This document shows, piece by piece, positions 2,201 through 34,539 of a DNA stretch of 37,346 nt. The position numbers and the translations under genes are program-made. Origin of the DNA: Candidatus Saccharimonadota bacterium (GTDB lineage: Bacteria > Patescibacteriota > Saccharimonadia > Saccharimonadales > Saccharimonadaceae); the NCBI GenBank assembly GCA_017515205.1, contig JAFWHN010000003.1:1-37346 (forward strand), read 5' to 3'. Numbering within the stretch: the first letter of the stretch is position 1; the number at the start of each line of letters is the position of its first letter. The notes under the pieces were generated by a model. That model had not been told where the DNA came from. It searched no databases and saw nothing but the letters and a program-made list of their open reading frames with translations.

Positions 2201-4336
2201 ATGCTAGTAATTAGTAAAAAGAAGCTCTTTTTTCGAAGTATAGCTTCGTTTTTAATCATCACTCTCATTTCATTACCAATCGTCAAAAACATAACAAATA
2301 ACCTGCTTGCATCTGCAGAATCATGCCCAAGCGCAGAAGCCTCCAATTGTAGTACATGGAAAAAAGGAACAAATAGCGGAAAATCCTATTATTTGTACAA
2401 TGGCACTTTAGGATCCATTTGGGTAGACGAAAACATTCTTGATAACGCAGACTACTTCGTTGGTGATTATGCAGGCGGTAAATACGTTGTTATTAAACCA
2501 GAATACTTAAACACTCTCGAAGCCAAAGACCAGTATTATGAAATAACAATTACACTTTCCGATTACCCAGAAGAACTATACAAGTATTATCTAAAGATTG
2601 AACCAGCGGATGACACAGAATTTACAGAAATAATCAATCAGACAATTGAAGGAAACACTGCAGGAACTATTCAACATACATTAAATTGGACACCAATTCC
2701 CGGTTCTGACATCGAATTTCGAAATACCATGGGCGGCGAAACCAGTACATTACATATTGTGGCCGGTCAAGCATACTCAGTCACGTCGAAGTTTGACATT
2801 ACCACTACCTACGACGGGAATAAAACGATAACTGTAAATTCACTCGGAAATGATCCAGAACCATTCACTGCAATAGATGTTACTTACCTTACAAATGACA
2901 AAACCGAGCCCACCCCAGATCCAGATTATACCTGGACCAAAGGCAGCACCACTGGGTTAACTATAAATAATGCTTACGATCAATCAACAGAAACTCCTGA
3001 AGGGATAAAACTAAATAATACTATAGTAAACTGGCATAACTGCATCACAGATTCAAATGGCAATATCACTATCGCTACAAGTTGTTTAAATAATTTTGAA
3101 GCTGGCATATATACAATAAACCTAGACTATACAGCCGAAGAAGCAGAAGGCCATATATTTAGTCGTGAACTAGGAACACTCGCAATTGAAAACGAAAACC
3201 CAACTCCAACATATACCGTCACACTAAACCCCAACGGTGCAAGCAATGTGCCAACAGCATCAACTCAAGTTACATATGGCATGCATTCCTTAGATCCAAT
3301 CGCCATACTTCCTATCAAAGCAACTACAACTGAAACCAGAACCATTTCAGGTTTTACATTAAGCGAAAGTGCTAATGGCGCCACCGTTTCTTCAACTGAA
3401 ACGCTAAATAGCAAAAGTGATACCCACTATGTCTTTAATGGTTGGTATGAAGAGCCTGCCGCAATTAATAAAGTCGCATCAAATGACTCCTCCCCAACAT
3501 ACCCGAAACTAGAGCCAAATACTGCATACACCAACGAAGAAAGACAATGGATTGATACGTCAGGAAACGTTACCTTATATGCAGGCTATACATCTACTAC
3601 TGACCCATATACTTCAGTCACATTACCAACTATCACTAAAGACAATTTTACTTGTGGTTGGAGCACCAATAGTTCTAGTACTAACTACACCTATGCTTCA
3701 AATGCGAGTATTACTCCAAATAGTAACTTAACGCTCTATGGTATATGTAAAGCTAATTCAGTCAATCCAGATGATCCAGTTAACCCAGATGACCCAGTTA
3801 ACCCAGACGGTCCAGTCAATCCAGATGACCCGAACAAATCAGATGAAGAATCAAACAATAAAAAATATCCAATTACAAACAGCATCCAAACTTTAGGTGA
3901 AAACGATAATCTGATTATCAAATCTAACGGAAAAGCCGATAAGCTTATTGGAATAGAAATTGATGGCAAAGAAATACCGAAAGATTATTTTAAAATCACA
4001 ACTAATCCAAAAACTGGTGAAATCATTATCGAAATTAATCACGATTTCGCAATTAATCTAAAAGATGGTGAACATAAGATTGCTATAGTTTATGACGACG
4101 GCACTTCCGAAGGAATAATTACGAAAAATGGCAATAATTTCGTTATTGAAAATATAGACACAGAAGTACCAAACACTTCCAATATTACTCCAGATACAGG
4201 CACAATGACTAAAAAGAATGGAAGTGTCATCGATAACGCTCCAATAATTCTGACTACTATCATAGTCGTTTCTTCAATCGCAACAATGGCTATACGCAAA
4301 AACGGTAAAAAGATTACTTTGCCAAAAAACAAATAA
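2201..4336 (+). CDS. Exported surface protein with InlB-type repeats and PDTG sorting tail
   Basis: Secreted and probably wall- or membrane-anchored, 711 residues. The N-terminus is a signal peptide (basic KKK, hydrophobic core, LLASAES). The middle contains an InlB/Listeria-Bacteroides-type repeat (about residues 345-470: YTVTLNPNGASN ... YVFNGWYEE ... VTLYAGY) and a second, shorter one (VTLPTITKDNFTCGW ... LTLYGICK). A fourfold VNPDDP linker follows (about 521-544), then an X2/Ig-like domain (NDNLIIKSNGK ... KDYFKITTNPKTGEIIIEI). The tail is VPNTSNITPDTG, with TPDTG at 663-667, then a hydrophobic segment and a basic end. It is a paralog of the gene ending at 664, with proS between them. InlB repeats are typical of adhesins; the actual partner cannot be told. 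Confidence 0.88.
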   Translation: MLVISKKKLFFRSIASFLIITLISLPIVKNITNNLLASAESCPSAEASNCSTWKKGTNSGKSYYLYNGTLGSIWVDENILDNADYFVGDYAGGKYVVIKPEYLNTLEAKDQYYEITITLSDYPEELYKYYLKIEPADDTEFTEIINQTIEGNTAGTIQHTLNWTPIPGSDIEFRNTMGGETSTLHIVAGQAYSVTSKFDITTTYDGNKTITVNSLGNDPEPFTAIDVTYLTNDKTEPTPDPDYTWTKGSTTGLTINNAYDQSTETPEGIKLNNTIVNWHNCITDSNGNITIATSCLNNFEAGIYTINLDYTAEEAEGHIFSRELGTLAIENENPTPTYTVTLNPNGASNVPTASTQVTYGMHSLDPIAILPIKATTTETRTISGFTLSESANGATVSSTETLNSKSDTHYVFNGWYEEPAAINKVASNDSSPTYPKLEPNTAYTNEERQWIDTSGNVTLYAGYTSTTDPYTSVTLPTITKDNFTCGWSTNSSSTNYTYASNASITPNSNLTLYGICKANSVNPDDPVNPDDPVNPDGPVNPDDPNKSDEESNNKKYPITNSIQTLGENDNLIIKSNGKADKLIGIEIDGKEIPKDYFKITTNPKTGEIIIEINHDFAINLKDGEHKIAIVYDDGTSEGIITKNGNNFVIENIDTEVPNTSNITPDTGTMTKKNGSVIDNAPIILTTIIVVSSIATMAIRKNGKKITLPKNK
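3761..3832 (+). repeat. Four 18-base tandem repeats encoding VNPDDP
   Basis: Units begin at 3761, 3779, 3797 and 3815, each a variant of GTtAAcCCAGATGAcCCA. They encode VNPDDP, VNPDDP, VNPDGP and VNPDDP, a stiff acidic linker before the wall-proximal domain. Copy number may vary between strains by slippage. Confidence 0.9.
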
Positions 4337-11361: not shown

Positions 11362-12912
11362 TTAAATTCCGGTCAACGGTTCAATATCTGCCCCCAGGTG
11401 TCGCAGTCTCGCTGCAAAATCCTGATAACCACGGTTAATCGGATACACATTACGTAAAATCGACTTCCCTGGCGCCGCCAGCATCCCAATCAGAATCACC
11501 ACTGCCGGCCGAAGCGCTTGTGGCGCCACTAGTTCCGCCGATCGCCAATTCGTCGGTCCTTCAATATAAACTCGATGCGCATCAAGAAGTTCCACCTTCA
11601 CATTCAAATTCGAAAGTTCCGTCGCATACACCGCCCGATTTTCAAACACCCAGTCATGAATTAAGGTTCTGCCTTCCGCCACCGCTGCAATCACGGTGAA
11701 AAATGGTAAGTTATCAATGTTAAGCCCCGGAAACGGCATCGGGTGAATCTTATCTGCCGGTGCTACCAATTTAGATTTTTTTACAGTCAAATCTACTAGT
11801 CGCGTTCGTCCATTCGCCGACAAATACTCCGGTGTCTTCTCAAATTTTGCATTCATATTCTTTAAAACTTCTAGCTCAATTTCCAAAAACTCAATTGGCG
11901 CCCGAAGAATCGTAATTTCAGAATTTGTCACTAGAGCTGCCGCAATAAAGCTCATCGCCTCAATTGGATCCTCTGAAATTGTATATTCTACATTAGTGCT
12001 ATGGCGTGATTTACCACGCACCACCAATTTAGTCGTCCCCACTCCTTCAATCTTAACGCCCAGTTTTTCCAAAAAGAAACAAAGATCTTGAACCATATAA
12101 TTCGGCGACGCACCTACAATTGTAGTTCTGCCCGAGCTCATCGCCGCCGCCATCAGCACATTCTCAGTCACTGTATCACCACGTTCAGACAGTACGATAT
12201 AACGGTCTTCTTTGCTCTTCAAAACTTTCTGGTCAACTTCCACTTCATAAAAACCGCTATTACTTGCCGCATCCACTTTAAGGCCAAACGAAGCTAAAGC
12301 TTTCAAATGCGGCTCCACGGTCCGTACGCCCAATGAACATCCACCAGCATAAGGTAACGTAAACTTTTTATAACGAAAAAGAAGTGGGCCTAAAAACATA
12401 ATAATCGAACGCGTTTTTCTGGCTGCATCAATATTTAATTCATCTAATTTTAATTCACGTGGTGATATAATTTCTAGGTCTCGATGCCGATTCATCCAGT
12501 GACATCTCACGCCAATTGACTCCAAAACTTCAATGATTCTAAACACTTCTTCAATTCGTGCCACCCGATGTAAAACTGTCTTTCCAGTATTTAAAAGCGC
12601 CGCACAAAGTAACCCAACTGCCGCATTTTTTGAAGTATTTACTGTAATTTCACCCGTCAATTCCTTGCCACCACGAATCATAAAACTCTGCGAGACTGAG
12701 TCATTTATAGAGAGAATTTGCGTACCAAATACCTCCGACATCTTTTTCACCATCTCAAGCGAAATATTTTGCCCACCTTTTTCAATCCGGTGAATCGCCG
12801 ACTGACTAGTCCCTACTGCCTGAGCCAATTCACCCTGTGTCCAACCCTTTTCTGTCCGCAGTTGTTCTACAGTTTCACCAATCACCTGCTGATAAGTTTT
12901 CATCTTCTTCAT
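11362..12912 (-). CDS. murA: MurA-like enolpyruvyltransferase with N-terminal XRE helix-turn-helix
   Basis: An EPSP-synthase-fold protein of the MurA family, which adds enolpyruvate to UDP-GlcNAc in peptidoglycan synthesis. Residues ~13-63 form an XRE helix-turn-helix (WTQGELAQAVGTSQSAIHRIEKG); the MurA part starts near residue 76 (SKNAAVG substrate loop). The catalytic cysteine is Cys192 in GGCSLGVRTVEPHL. The Asp of the FPTD motif is kept (PGLNID), as are ENR and RGYQ near the end. Odd: the Asp of the usual TDLRA motif (Asp369 in E. coli) is Ala here (PQALRPA). I chose ATG 12912, 7 bases after TGATATAAT; a longer reading from 12963 would run through the promoter. It is either a MurA with a DNA-binding domain or a regulator derived from MurA. 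Confidence 0.9.
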   Translation of the reverse strand: MKKMKTYQQVIGETVEQLRTEKGWTQGELAQAVGTSQSAIHRIEKGGQNISLEMVKKMSEVFGTQILSINDSVSQSFMIRGGKELTGEITVNTSKNAAVGLLCAALLNTGKTVLHRVARIEEVFRIIEVLESIGVRCHWMNRHRDLEIISPRELKLDELNIDAARKTRSIIMFLGPLLFRYKKFTLPYAGGCSLGVRTVEPHLKALASFGLKVDAASNSGFYEVEVDQKVLKSKEDRYIVLSERGDTVTENVLMAAAMSSGRTTIVGASPNYMVQDLCFFLEKLGVKIEGVGTTKLVVRGKSRHSTNVEYTISEDPIEAMSFIAAALVTNSEITILRAPIEFLEIELEVLKNMNAKFEKTPEYLSANGRTRLVDLTVKKSKLVAPADKIHPMPFPGLNIDNLPFFTVIAAVAEGRTLIHDWVFENRAVYATELSNLNVKVELLDAHRVYIEGPTNWRSAELVAPQALRPAVVILIGMLAAPGKSILRNVYPINRGYQDFAARLRHLGADIEPLTGI

Positions 12913-12919
12913 ACAAAAA

Positions 12920-12947
12920 ATTATATCACAGCATGAATATTTGTAAA
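12920..12947 (-). promoter_or_regulatory. murA leaderless-type promoter
   Basis: TTTACA, a 16-base spacer, then TGA-TATAAT, ending 7 bases before the ATG at 12912. It is divergent from the pgk promoter about 45 bases away. The helix-turn-helix of this MurA could in principle act here (inference). Confidence 0.75.
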
Positions 12948-16169: not shown

Positions 16170-16889
16170 TTATCCTTCATCACAAATCACATCTGTCGAA
16201 TTTTCACTATAATTAATCGTGTATTCTGATAATTTAATCGGCGTGCTTTCAAGATAATCCGTCGCCATCTTTTTAAACTTTTCAGAATCACAGACCGAAA
16301 CAATCACATCAATCGTCTTATTAGCTTCGTCCCCTTCTATATGTATATCTGGCGCAGCATCTTCATACTGAGACTTCACGACATATGGCAAGTACAAACC
16401 AAGCGAATAAGTACTATTATAAGAACCGTGGCAAATAGTCTCTGGGTACTTCATTTTACTTTGTGGTGGGCAATCCACCACCACTTCATACACCACGCTC
16501 TTATCTTTAGACCAACCTGTCGAAATTGTATATGTCTGTTTCAATGAATCAATATCTACTATAAAATTTACACTCACAGATCCATCTTCGTTTTCCGTTT
16601 CTTGATACGTCCCTTCGCGAATTACTATATCATCTATGTTGTTTGAATCTACGCCAGGCAAACTACTAGAAACAAGTGTCCAAATATTATCAGCCACAAA
16701 ATCTTTAGCATTATTAGGAATACTGGCTTCTTCTTCTGTTTTGTTATCCTCTATGGAAGCATATTGCCTTGGTGCTAAGAAAAACTGTAGAACCGATACC
16801 AAAATAGCAATAATTACTATCTGTAATATTGCAGCAATGCCAATTTTTTGATTTTTTGATAAATTATTAAGTAAATTTTTAAACATCAC
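16170..16889 (-). CDS. Membrane-anchored exported protein, last gene of the hydrolase operon
   Basis: 239 residues, not recognised. One N-terminal transmembrane segment (about 18-40, IAAILQIVIIAILVSVLQFFL) anchors an extracytoplasmic domain with four cysteines (VVDCPP, ETICHG, VSVCDS, VICDEG) that could form two disulfides. The start overlaps the stop of the upstream hydrolase by ATGA, so translation is coupled and the two products are probably made in fixed ratio. It may hold, inhibit or assist the wall hydrolase, but there is no direct evidence. A bidirectional terminator follows. Confidence 0.8.
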   Translation of the reverse strand: MMFKNLLNNLSKNQKIGIAAILQIVIIAILVSVLQFFLAPRQYASIEDNKTEEEASIPNNAKDFVADNIWTLVSSSLPGVDSNNIDDIVIREGTYQETENEDGSVSVNFIVDIDSLKQTYTISTGWSKDKSVVYEVVVDCPPQSKMKYPETICHGSYNSTYSLGLYLPYVVKSQYEDAAPDIHIEGDEANKTIDVIVSVCDSEKFKKMATDYLESTPIKLSEYTINYSENSTDVICDEG

Positions 16890-19363
16890 TCACTCAATGC
16901 TCCATCCTTTAGTTTCTTACCGGCATAAGCATAGTTATACCCTTTGCTCTTAGCTTCTGCGAATGTAATAGTAACTGCGTGTGGCTCGTAATAAAGTGCA
17001 CTTTTACCCTCCGAACAAGAAGCTTCACCAATCACCATTTTTTTCGCCTTTTCATCGATACCCAAAACCACGCCCGTATGTGTCCATGGAGAATATGTAC
17101 TAAAAACTGCAAATAGTTGGGGCTCGGTACCAGTCTCAAAGCCATACTCACCAAGACGATGGGCCATTTCGCCACCAGTAGCAGTATGATCCCAATTCGG
17201 TCCAAGAGTCGTATATCTATTTACAAACCACTGTGAAAAGGCTACGCAGTTATTCATTATACCAAAAGGACAATTAACTAGTCCGTTAATCATCCCACCC
17301 ATAATAGTTTTTCTGCGCCAATCTTTTTTATAGTATTCCCCCATTGCCGCATCATGATAGGGCTTCATAAACGCCTCAGCTTCAGAAAGCGACATATTCT
17401 TCAGCCCCTCCATCGCATAGATATCACCATTCCCATTCTTCCCAGCACAAACATTACAGCTGGAAGTCCCCTTTTTGTTATTTTTATTCCGATAAACCAC
17501 TCTTTTTCCAGTATGGTAAGAAGTATTAGTAATGAAACTAGAGTCGCGCACCAATCCATACCTATCACCTAACGAAGCCGACACGTCATAACCAGTACCG
17601 TTAGCGTCTTCTGCATATATTCCAACATGCTCTGGGCTATTACTACCACTCTTATAATAAAACACTACATCCCCAGATTCATATTTATCTAGTTTTTTAA
17701 CATTATCTATCTCAACTTTTTCCCAATCATCACTTCCTTCCACATACCTCAATAGAGTTGGTACGCTGCCCATTTCAAAATTCTTATCCACACCAGAATA
17801 TCGTACCGCCGTTGTCACAAAGCGATCACAGCTTTTGCCACCTTCTACACTGTTTGATGGATCTACCTCTTCAATATAATATTTCGCAAACCTCTTTGTT
17901 GCACTACTCGCCGCATCGCTATCTTTTCCAAGTGGCCACGCCAATTCCAAAGCACTTGCACCTATATCACCATTACCTGGCCCCGACATCGTAACCTTGC
18001 CAGTCGAATTAGATTCCGATACACCATCCTTTACCGAAACACCATCCGTAGAATTTTTAGCACTTTTAGCCCTAATAATATACTTAGGATTGCTAAACGA
18101 ATCGATATGACCATATGTCGAACCCCAACCAGCTTTTGCCACCCAAAGCTCATTTTCTTCATCTCTCACTGCAATCTCTACGTGTTCTACTTTTTTACCA
18201 TCCTTATTCGTAGATATTCTATAAAGCACGTCACCAGCTTGTATACTAGATTTCTTTCCATCATAATCCAGCCTTTCCCACAAGTCTTTATTCTTGCTAA
18301 CATAGTCTAGCACTTTACCGGAACCATCAGGAAAATCTTTATCATAGCCAGAATATCTTACCACAGTTCCTACAAACACATCGCAAGAAGCCCCTACACG
18401 TCTATACTCATCCCAATGTTTATGGTTAGGATAAACATCTCCAAGCGCCTTCTTAAATAACGCTGTCGGACCACCATCGCCCCATTCATAATCATCTTTG
18501 CTAGTACCCTCTGGCCATGCCAATGCTACCGCCGTGGCGTTTATATTCTTACTGCCTTCTATCTTCCCACTGCACGATGGATCACCGCTCGAACCCTCTC
18601 CGGAAATTTCCTCACCATGCAATTTATCATAAAATTCCTGTGCTGATTCACGTCGACCCGGTCTTGTACCTTCAATATTTCCTGGTACCTCCACTCTTTC
18701 CAAAAAATAATCTGCCGCTTCCTGCACAGTTTTTGTATTATATATACCGCCATAGACGGAATTACTATCAAACTCTTGTTTCAATCTACAAAGTTCAATC
18801 GCAAGCATTTCGTTAGTCACATCATCGCCGGCTTTTTCCAAAAACTCCGCTCCACTAACATTTTTGCCATATTCTTGTCTACCTTCGTCAATATAAGTAT
18901 TCCATAACTCAATATTATTATCCTTAAATGTATTATATAAGTTAACCCTTCTTCCAAATGACCACTGTATTAAACCTAAGCCATAAGAAGTACTACTATT
19001 CCCAGCTATGTCAAAATTAGGCGAAGCATTAATGAAACTAGTCTCATGTCGCGCTGGATTCAATCCAGATTCGTGTGTCATATTGCCCATTACGCCAGCC
19101 GCCTGCTCGTCACTTAAAAACGTAGTTAGTCCACTCCACACTTTTTCCTCTATCGTTTCACCAGAAACCGTAATTCCGCAAGCCTCACCCGAACCACCTG
19201 AGCCGTCACAATTATCTATAAAAAACAAAGAATTCTGAGAACGAATCGCATATTCTTCATCAGTTAGACTATCACTCGCAAACGACTGCCGGTTGCCAAT
19301 AATCAAACCTAGCAATAATACCAAAGCAATTACTAACAAACTACATAAAACTTTTCTTCTCAT
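16886..19363 (-). CDS. Secreted multi-domain peptidoglycan hydrolase: phage-type lysozyme, two NlpC/P60-like domains, CHAP
   Basis: An 825-residue exported wall hydrolase. A signal peptide (1-30) is followed by a phage-tail-lysozyme-type domain (about 68-250) with the GNMTHESGLNP motif and probable catalytic Glu98. Two related NlpC/P60-like units come next: about 278-435 (Cys327 in SCDVF, His394 in EHVEI) and 472-625 (Cys512 in SCDRF, His579 in EHVGI). A CHAP-like domain (about 680-820) has Cys706 in NNCVAFSQW and His762 in THTGVVLG. Glycan strands and stem peptides could thus both be cut. It lies between a PEGA protein 2 bases upstream and an anchored protein with ATGA overlap. Likely roles are own-wall remodelling or opening of a host cell wall. 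Domain calls rest on motifs only. Confidence 0.88.
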   Translation of the reverse strand: MRRKVLCSLLVIALVLLLGLIIGNRQSFASDSLTDEEYAIRSQNSLFFIDNCDGSGGSGEACGITVSGETIEEKVWSGLTTFLSDEQAAGVMGNMTHESGLNPARHETSFINASPNFDIAGNSSTSYGLGLIQWSFGRRVNLYNTFKDNNIELWNTYIDEGRQEYGKNVSGAEFLEKAGDDVTNEMLAIELCRLKQEFDSNSVYGGIYNTKTVQEAADYFLERVEVPGNIEGTRPGRRESAQEFYDKLHGEEISGEGSSGDPSCSGKIEGSKNINATAVALAWPEGTSKDDYEWGDGGPTALFKKALGDVYPNHKHWDEYRRVGASCDVFVGTVVRYSGYDKDFPDGSGKVLDYVSKNKDLWERLDYDGKKSSIQAGDVLYRISTNKDGKKVEHVEIAVRDEENELWVAKAGWGSTYGHIDSFSNPKYIIRAKSAKNSTDGVSVKDGVSESNSTGKVTMSGPGNGDIGASALELAWPLGKDSDAASSATKRFAKYYIEEVDPSNSVEGGKSCDRFVTTAVRYSGVDKNFEMGSVPTLLRYVEGSDDWEKVEIDNVKKLDKYESGDVVFYYKSGSNSPEHVGIYAEDANGTGYDVSASLGDRYGLVRDSSFITNTSYHTGKRVVYRNKNNKKGTSSCNVCAGKNGNGDIYAMEGLKNMSLSEAEAFMKPYHDAAMGEYYKKDWRRKTIMGGMINGLVNCPFGIMNNCVAFSQWFVNRYTTLGPNWDHTATGGEMAHRLGEYGFETGTEPQLFAVFSTYSPWTHTGVVLGIDEKAKKMVIGEASCSEGKSALYYEPHAVTITFAEAKSKGYNYAYAGKKLKDGALSE

Positions 19364-32415: not shown

Positions 32416-34539
32416 TTATACCTTATTAATCACCGGAATTACAATTGGCGTATGTCCCGTCGCATCAAACAAAATATGCTCGACATCTTCCTTGATTTCT
32501 TCCTTTAAAACTTTCATTTCTGGGTCCGTCGAAATCGATTTATCAGTTTTCTGTCGGAGATAATGACGAATTTTCCCAATCAATTCCTCCGAATTATCTA
32601 GATAAATAAATGCTCTCGATACGATATCTGGCGTTTTCATCAAATGTCCAGTCTTTTTGCTAAGCGTCAAAACGATAATAAATATTCCTTCCCGTGAAAT
32701 ATGAATCCGATCCTTCACCACCGCTTCATGCACTTGCTGATCCGCGTCGTCATATAGTTTATTTCCTACGTGAATCCGACCAGCTTTGCGAATCGTCTTT
32801 TCAGGAGTCAATTCCACGATATCTCCATCATCTGAAAGCAGAATCCTTGATCGATCCAAACCAATCACATTTTCCGCCATTTCCGCATTATGCTCTAGCA
32901 TGTAAAATTCACCGTGATACGGCATATAGTTCAAAGGATGTAACCTCGTCACAAAATCCACATGATCCTCAAAATATGCATGCCCAGACAAATGTAAAGG
33001 CCCGATATTAGTAAGATGCGTCTTTCCGTTTTGAATAACCTGTGCTCCCTCGCGCAAAAGCCCATCCACCGTCGAAACTACATGTGGCTCATTGCCCGGA
33101 ATCGGATTTGACGAAAACACAATCGTATCGGTCGACTTAATCTTAATGTATTTATGCGCACCAGTCACCATCCGATTCAAAACCGCGTTCAATTCGCCCT
33201 GCGAACCAGTACAGACTATACAAACTTTTTCATCTGGCAACTTAACGATGTCTTCCATCTTCACAATTGTGTCTTTTGGTACTTTCACAGACTTTGAACG
33301 TAACGCCACTTCCACATTATTAATCATCGAAAAGCCCGAAAATGCTACTTTGCGACCTCGTTTTGACGCTTCTTTCAAAATCAACTCAATTCTTGAAATC
33401 TGTGACGAAAAACACGAAATAATCACTCGACCGTTCGCATAATGGTCCATTACTTTACCCAAATTCTCACCTACATCATATTCTGAATGTGGATGATGCC
33501 CTGGTGAATCAATATTAGTCGACTCGTTTACCATCAAATCTACGCCTTCTTTTGCGACAATCTCATCAATTCTTTCATAATCAGTCTGCACACCCATCGG
33601 GTTGTTCTCATGTCGCCAGTCTCCCGAAAAATAAATTAAACCATTCGGTGTTCTGACTACGATTGCCGTATTGCCAGGAATAGAGTGAAGCGTATGAATA
33701 AACTCTACCGAAAAATGCTCACTTACCTGAATTTTTTCGTGCTTAAATGGGTCTACCACCTGATAATTCATCTCCGGTTCATCTTCAAGCTCCGACATCT
33801 GTTTTTTAATCATTCCAAGCGTAAATTCAGTGCCATAAATTGGCGTCAAATGCGAAAACTTCGGTAGCAAATGCCTGCAAGCCCCAATATGGTCCAGATG
33901 TGCGTGCGTGAAGCAAATCGCCTTCACTTTAGAAACATTATCCTCTAAATATTTAATATCAGGAATCAGATAGTTTACTCCTGGATAATCGTCTCCCGCA
34001 AATAACACCCCCATATCTATTACAATCATTTCGGTTTTATATTCCAGAATCGTCATATTCTTACCAATGCCAAATTCACCCACACCACCAATCGGAATAA
34101 TCCGCACTGATTCTGGGTCTGGTCGCATCTGCTTCAATTTAGCATTCGTTACCTGCTCACCACCATATCCATTATAGCGTGACTTATTCACTGGTATACC
34201 AATAATATGCTGTGTCGCTTGTGCATTCACATCTTGGCTTAACATTCTCTGATGGTGCATTACCTCACCTTTTTTCGCTGAAACCGACAAATTAACTTTT
34301 CTTTGCTCGGCCTCTAATTTAGCCTGAGATTTTTCGGCTTTTTTGCTAGATTTTTTACTAGTTTGTGCAACTTTTTTCGCAGTTTTCTTATTAACTAACT
34401 TTTCATCCTTACCGCCAGGCCCAAAATTCGAATTAAAATTTCGATTTTGTGCCTCTTCAAATTGCTTTTTAATATCTGGCAATCTTTCTGCCCTCGATTT
34501 TAAGAGCCGGGCACGACGCTCTTCTTCTTTTAAATTCAT
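32416..34539 (-). CDS. rnj: Ribonuclease J with long basic N-terminal extension
   Basis: A metallo-beta-lactamase-fold nuclease (5'-3' exo- and endonuclease) for mRNA decay and rRNA maturation. The zinc motif THAHLDH lies at 211-217, further ligands are in HTLHSIPGN and FSGDWRH, and beta-CASP features include CFSSQISR, CTGSQGE and YMPYHGEFYM. At 707 residues it is about 150 longer than usual. The conserved part begins near 146 (RIIPIGGVGEFG). The extension is Lys-, Ala- and Gln-rich (KKTAKKVAQTSKKSSKKAEK) and probably disordered, perhaps binding RNA or ribosomes. AAAAGGA precedes the ATG. It is divergent from nusA. Confidence 0.96.
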   Translation of the reverse strand: MNLKEEERRARLLKSRAERLPDIKKQFEEAQNRNFNSNFGPGGKDEKLVNKKTAKKVAQTSKKSSKKAEKSQAKLEAEQRKVNLSVSAKKGEVMHHQRMLSQDVNAQATQHIIGIPVNKSRYNGYGGEQVTNAKLKQMRPDPESVRIIPIGGVGEFGIGKNMTILEYKTEMIVIDMGVLFAGDDYPGVNYLIPDIKYLEDNVSKVKAICFTHAHLDHIGACRHLLPKFSHLTPIYGTEFTLGMIKKQMSELEDEPEMNYQVVDPFKHEKIQVSEHFSVEFIHTLHSIPGNTAIVVRTPNGLIYFSGDWRHENNPMGVQTDYERIDEIVAKEGVDLMVNESTNIDSPGHHPHSEYDVGENLGKVMDHYANGRVIISCFSSQISRIELILKEASKRGRKVAFSGFSMINNVEVALRSKSVKVPKDTIVKMEDIVKLPDEKVCIVCTGSQGELNAVLNRMVTGAHKYIKIKSTDTIVFSSNPIPGNEPHVVSTVDGLLREGAQVIQNGKTHLTNIGPLHLSGHAYFEDHVDFVTRLHPLNYMPYHGEFYMLEHNAEMAENVIGLDRSRILLSDDGDIVELTPEKTIRKAGRIHVGNKLYDDADQQVHEAVVKDRIHISREGIFIIVLTLSKKTGHLMKTPDIVSRAFIYLDNSEELIGKIRHYLRQKTDKSISTDPEMKVLKEEIKEDVEHILFDATGHTPIVIPVINKV

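Follow-up and report, generated by a model that had tools for sequence, protein, structure and literature searches.

The question raised by this locus is why an enzyme of cell wall synthesis should carry a DNA-binding domain, and what that domain does. The window, by which we mean the whole stretch of 37,346 nucleotides analysed here (contig JAFWHN010000003.1 of a Candidatus Saccharimonadota bacterium), contains on its minus strand an open reading frame with an ATG at 12912 and a stop at 11362, in which an XRE helix-turn-helix (HTH) is joined to a full MurA (Table 1); the named relatives are Candidatus Saccharibacteria. The answer that we consider likely from the sequence comparisons below is that the protein would be a functional MurA which, by way of its XRE domain, binds a palindrome at its own promoter and represses that promoter. 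The first-pass annotation had read one frame as an XRE domain followed by a complete MurA, and Pfam bears this out, with HTH_3 at residues 16-66 (E = 5.8e-15, 55.5 bits against a cut-off of 23; above the cut-off in 49/49 relatives of set A5) and EPSP_synthase at residues 80-502 (E = 5.3e-50). An AlphaFold2 model built with 48 relatives (mean pLDDT 88.6) displays four HTH helices (residues 7-21, 26-33, 37-45 and 52-62), a weak linker at about residues 68-73 and a MurA fold. The nearest solved structures are MurA enzymes, with 5u4h as the top Foldseek match (E = 5.2e-37) and a TM-score of 0.90, by target length, to E. coli MurA 1uae.

Table 1. Positions in the window of the HTH-MurA gene, its protein domains and the predicted elements of its promoter.
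Feature	Position	Strand	Basis or remark
HTH-MurA gene, 516 aa, ATG start	11362..12912	-	ORF and Pfam; sole EPSP_synthase-family member of the genome
XRE/Cro-type helix-turn-helix domain, residues 16-66	12715..12867	-	Pfam HTH_3, AF2 helices and dN/dS
Recognition helix, residues 37-45, within the invariant TSQSAxxRIExGxQN motif	12778..12804	-	AF2 model and invariant residues
Flexible linker, residues 63-76	12685..12726	-	Low pLDDT; residues 68-73 below 50
MurA (enolpyruvyl transferase) domain, residues 77-516	11365..12684	-	Pfam and Foldseek
Cys192, matching the catalytic Cys115 in E. coli MurA	12337..12339	-	Alignment with E. coli MurA
ERGDT replacing E. coli K160-VSVG-164 (UDP-binding loop)	12172..12186	-	Alignment; subfamily trait
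PQALRP loop replacing TDLR(A), without Asp369 and with one extra residue	11506..11523	-	Alignment; subfamily trait
Predicted operator TATTCATGCTGTGATATA, genus variant of TATATCA-N4-TGATATA	12922..12939	-	0/500 shuffles as good
-35 box TTTACA of the murA promoter	12942..12947	-	Promoter reading
Extended (TG) -10 box TATAAT, 7 nt from the ATG and overlapping the predicted operator	12920..12925	-	Promoter reading

The mechanical list of open reading frames begins this gene at an upstream TTG (12963), a start that we discarded because it lies 5' of the promoter. The evidence also came out against a start after the HTH: the HTH codons are under purifying selection (dN/dS about 0.075 in 14 close relatives, where the MurA part gives 0.06), and in many relatives in-frame stops are found a few codons 5' of the same ATG. 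Both observations support translation beginning before the HTH. Elsewhere in the window we noted a protein of 825 aa that contains a phage-tail-lysozyme domain (PF18013) and may be a secreted wall hydrolase (16886-19363, minus strand), a 711-aa protein without a Pfam match at 1e-5 (2201-4336, plus strand), and an RNase J whose metallo-beta-lactamase domain is preceded by an N-terminal extension of about 150 residues (32416-34539, minus strand).

A search of the window's genome (650 kb, 91% complete) found no second, canonical murA: the gene is its only member of the EPSP/MurA family, and a single EPSP-family gene is likewise present, together with murB, in 8/8 single-contig relatives, which speaks against the first-pass suggestion of a sensor without full activity. 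The same genome has six Mur-ligase matches. The fusion is conserved in close relatives and almost throughout the order: of about 163 genomes sampled there, mostly metagenome bins, all but two match the fused model, by a count that, like several others, was made by hand from table rows. Nearly all of the listed matches cover model positions 1-506, in frames longer than 500 aa. Other orders of the same class have an ordinary, unfused MurA of 417-449 aa; in three of these unfused proteins (L042, L043 and L047) Asp replaces the catalytic Cys115 (GGDxIG), a known fosfomycin-insensitivity substitution. Outside the class the fusion recurs in six families (f58, f73, f111, f154, f162 and f52), and unfused members of the same MurA subfamily exist as well. 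In a tree with ordinary MurA as outgroup, the subfamily forms one clade (100/100) whose earliest branches are unfused and within which the fused genes arise, with later losses of the HTH in L077, L079, L082 and L076, each beside fused sisters; the order of the deepest splits between the fused families is only partly resolved.

The protein shares 29% identity with E. coli MurA, and its subfamily keeps K22, N23, R91, C115, R120, D305, R331, R371 and R397 of that enzyme, including, as the first-pass annotation had noted, the catalytic Cys. That annotation also reported an Asp-to-Ala change in the TDLRA motif as a possible sign of a sensor role. Asp369 is indeed gone; the change is, however, a loop change with an extra residue that is common to the whole subfamily, in which TDLRA becomes PPALRPA or PQALRPA and KVSVG becomes E-x-GDT in fused and unfused members alike. 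Because unfused relatives carry the same loop, the alignments place the loss of Asp369 before the HTH and independent of it, and we discarded it as a mark of a sensor. Nor need a change at this position kill the enzyme, since one report links Asp369Asn in E. coli MurA to increased fosfomycin resistance (PMC10352792).

These results bear on the possibility that the MurA part has little or no enzymatic activity and serves as a ligand sensor for the HTH, with wall precursors otherwise made or obtained. The loss of Asp369 and the changed UDP loop would agree with it, as would a score below the cut-off of the murA equivalog (TIGR01072, 297.3 against 392.7 bits) and the precedent of BzdR, whose enzyme domain lost catalysis on turning sensor (PMC3602430). 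The cut-off of NF006873 is passed (320.9 against 297 bits). We nevertheless regard this reading as unlikely, given that no other gene of the family is found in the genome or its single-contig relatives while murB and the Mur ligases are present, that the active-site Cys, Lys, Asn, Arg and Asp305 are kept, that unfused relatives have the same loops, and that the MurA part is under purifying selection. We therefore continue with the reading of HTH-MurA as an enzyme that is probably active.

If HTH-MurA is also a DNA-binding protein, a target would be expected, and the first-pass annotation proposed the divergent murA/pgk spacer. For 80 named genes, the nearest among 574 hits, we examined 120 bp of upstream sequence. 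In most Saccharibacteria it contains an 18-bp palindrome, TATATCA-N4-TGATATA, directly before the ATG; in Streptomyces, Kitasatospora, Nonomuraea and kin the actinobacterial version reads TATCTCA-N4-TGAGATA. The end of the palindrome is 8-11 bp from the ATG in 72/80 of the named genes. In the genus of the window the predicted operator is TATTCAT-NNTG-TGATATA, with a left half, TATTCAT, that fits the dyad poorly. The right half-site doubles as an extended -10 box, so part of the palindrome signal is promoter, but the left half falls within the spacer and is unexplained by the promoter alone. With only 7 nt from the -10 box to the ATG, the murA mRNA is probably leaderless or nearly so. The conserved palindrome at murA's own promoter supports the proposal of a DNA-binding wall enzyme with its target in the spacer. 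The suggestion that pgk is the gene controlled from there did not hold, because the palindrome overlaps murA's -10 box and is still found before murA where another gene lies next to it.

Counting dyads with fixed arms and no motif model proved too weak in AT-rich promoters, most of the shuffled P values being not significant, and for this reason we used a symmetric matrix, held-out genes and unfused controls. The matrix was trained on the 80 named genes and finds a site before 80/80 of these. With P values that rest on shuffles of short AT-rich promoters, 26/36 held-out fused genes and 0/13 unfused relatives have a site at P<=0.01 (Fisher 4.4e-6, a figure that ignores shared descent). The 10/36 held-out genes without a site at this threshold within 80 bp include several with one farther upstream. 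Sister pairs agree with this pattern, in that the fused L073 has a site and the unfused L077 does not, and likewise for L074 and L082. No site was found upstream of L075, which retains the HTH by Pfam and whose recognition helix reads IDTSLLTEIELGQKD against TSQSAxxRIExGxQN. In L071, L072 and L074 the residue preceding the invariant Gln is Thr and not Ser, and the half-site becomes TATAGC/GCTATA in 3/3 of these genes, whereas xGC half-sites occur in 1/111 of the Ser genes, a contrast that ignores shared descent and counts three cases only. In these alignments the palindrome covaries with a residue of the recognition helix. In family f58, three genes (L237, L238 and L241) have two operators 62-72 bp apart upstream of the fused murA, as expected of cooperative repressors.

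This pattern also bears on two readings in which the HTH would not act on the palindrome. The site might belong to another repressor, the HTH of MurA having a different target or none, which we judge most improbable because the site is missing both before unfused genes and before the gene with the altered helix, is conserved from Patescibacteria to Streptomyces, and varies with the recognition-helix residue. Alternatively, the HTH might contact another protein and so position the enzyme where the wall grows. A precedent for such folds is RodZ, whose XRE-like domain binds MreB, and the gene is one of wall synthesis. However, the domain matches the DNA-binding HTH_3 and HTH_31 strongly, HTH_25 appearing below its cut-off and in relatives alone, and the palindrome accompanies the HTH in different phyla while unfused genes have none, so that a protein-binding role appears very unlikely. 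The palindrome at murA's promoter is thus kept as the probable target of the XRE domain.

Whether HTH-MurA might be a wider regulator, acting also on pgk or other wall genes, was considered from genome-wide searches. The murA promoter ranks first in 8/8 listed relatives, as the single best site in 7/8, and in 5/5 actinomycete genomes (6.5-10.9 Mb) the gene's own promoter is the single best site, which argues against a wider role. In favour of one, further matches in the window's genome carry 1-3 mismatches, with two of them inside or beside murD, and the genome of L136 (G497) has a second perfect TATATCA-N4-TGATATA at C1:54534-54551, with a weaker one 80 bp on. The operator-like sequence with one mismatch inside murD (C9:264756-264775; L181: 1501-1520), where the coding sequence spells YSSYDII, and the site with two mismatches inside a methyltransferase-like gene (C9:223740) are both coding sequence for YSSxDII, so they are probably chance and we discarded them as a regulon. 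Altogether we think it rather improbable that control extends beyond murA.

We infer that the palindrome is bound by the protein, that binding represses, and that the enzyme is active, and the circuit may be pictured as follows. The cell's only MurA would make UDP-GlcNAc-enolpyruvate for the wall pathway, while its N-terminal XRE domain would bind the 18-bp palindrome, which overlaps the -10 box of the murA promoter. At high levels the protein most likely occupies the palindrome as a pair and obstructs RNA polymerase, and the first committed wall enzyme would thereby limit its own amount. An XRE domain on a palindrome over a -10 box implies repression, judging from established XRE biology, and with a DNA-binding head and a palindrome on its own promoter, the enzyme is most likely an off-switch for its own gene. 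Since the putative repressor is the enzyme, the enzyme level would feed back on its own transcription. Occupancy by the substrates, UDP-GlcNAc and PEP, may also alter DNA binding.

The same protein appears to be present in Streptomyces as MurA2 (the SCO5998 family), with the same two domains, about 60% identity, and the same palindrome in the same place. In the tree the actinobacterial sequences (seven rows) group together as one clade (100/99) within a well supported Saccharibacteria set (22 rows, 100/99). Such nesting suggests, as the simplest reading, a transfer of gene and operator from Patescibacteria to Actinobacteria; the known hosts of Saccharibacteria belong to the phylum of Streptomyces. 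Unlike Saccharibacteria, Streptomycetes also keep an ordinary MurA and AroA, so MurA2 is a second copy there. An aconitase gene lies upstream on the opposite strand in 6/11 actinomycete loci checked, and S. coelicolor SCO5998 itself was matched through this synteny only, the aconitase neighbour being as published for SCO5998/SCO5999 (PMC12161575). Streptomyces genomes G491-G493 and G495 have a different palindrome, TATCTCGATGTCGAGATA, 1.5-3.2 kb from murA2; it is near the divergent aconitase gene, and from this position we discarded it as the same operator. In the accessible portions of published descriptions, SCO5998 appears either as MurA2, with a DmdR1 site predicted close by, or as a SigB-regulon target, and these portions mention neither an HTH nor autoregulation. 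Our literature searches, with most subscription papers outside their reach, found no paper describing the HTH-MurA fusion.

A further reading, which we put forward tentatively as possible rather than probable, is that HTH-MurA is a ligand-gated enzyme-repressor, in which closure of the MurA domain on its substrate changes the grip of the HTH, and that this circuit was passed from Saccharibacteria to Streptomyces and persists there as MurA2. If this is true, the first committed step of wall synthesis would read its own substrate and set its own transcription with no separate regulator.

MurA control, as known elsewhere, is mostly exerted on the protein, by proteolysis, activators and product inhibition. 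The ordinary MurA of E. coli and B. subtilis has the same fold and shares most catalytic residues with HTH-MurA, but has no HTH and retains Asp369 and the KVSVG loop. Active enzymes with a DNA-binding domain that repress their own pathway are represented by NadR (an XRE HTH with nucleotidyltransferase and kinase domains), PutA and BirA; their ligand switches are proven and, to our knowledge, none of them is a wall enzyme. The anatomy of HTH-MurA, as predicted from sequence, agrees with this trigger-enzyme or enzyme-repressor type. By analogy of architecture, the closest worked-out analogue is BzdR, which binds operators and similarly has an N-terminal XRE domain, a linker and an enzyme-derived C-terminal domain (PMC3602430). 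Its shikimate-kinase-like domain, however, lost activity and BzdR controls a catabolic operon, in contrast to HTH-MurA, which is the sole enzyme copy and has its predicted site on its own promoter.

The unfused, fused, HTH-lost and HTH-altered genes form a natural series in which an enzyme recruits a DNA-binding domain and is apparently still an enzyme, a stage that the BzdR work rebuilt artificially (PMC3602430). The Streptomyces copy makes autoregulation testable in tractable organisms. Saccharibacteria are epibiotic bacteria, and a whole order of them appears to build transcriptional feedback into MurA itself.
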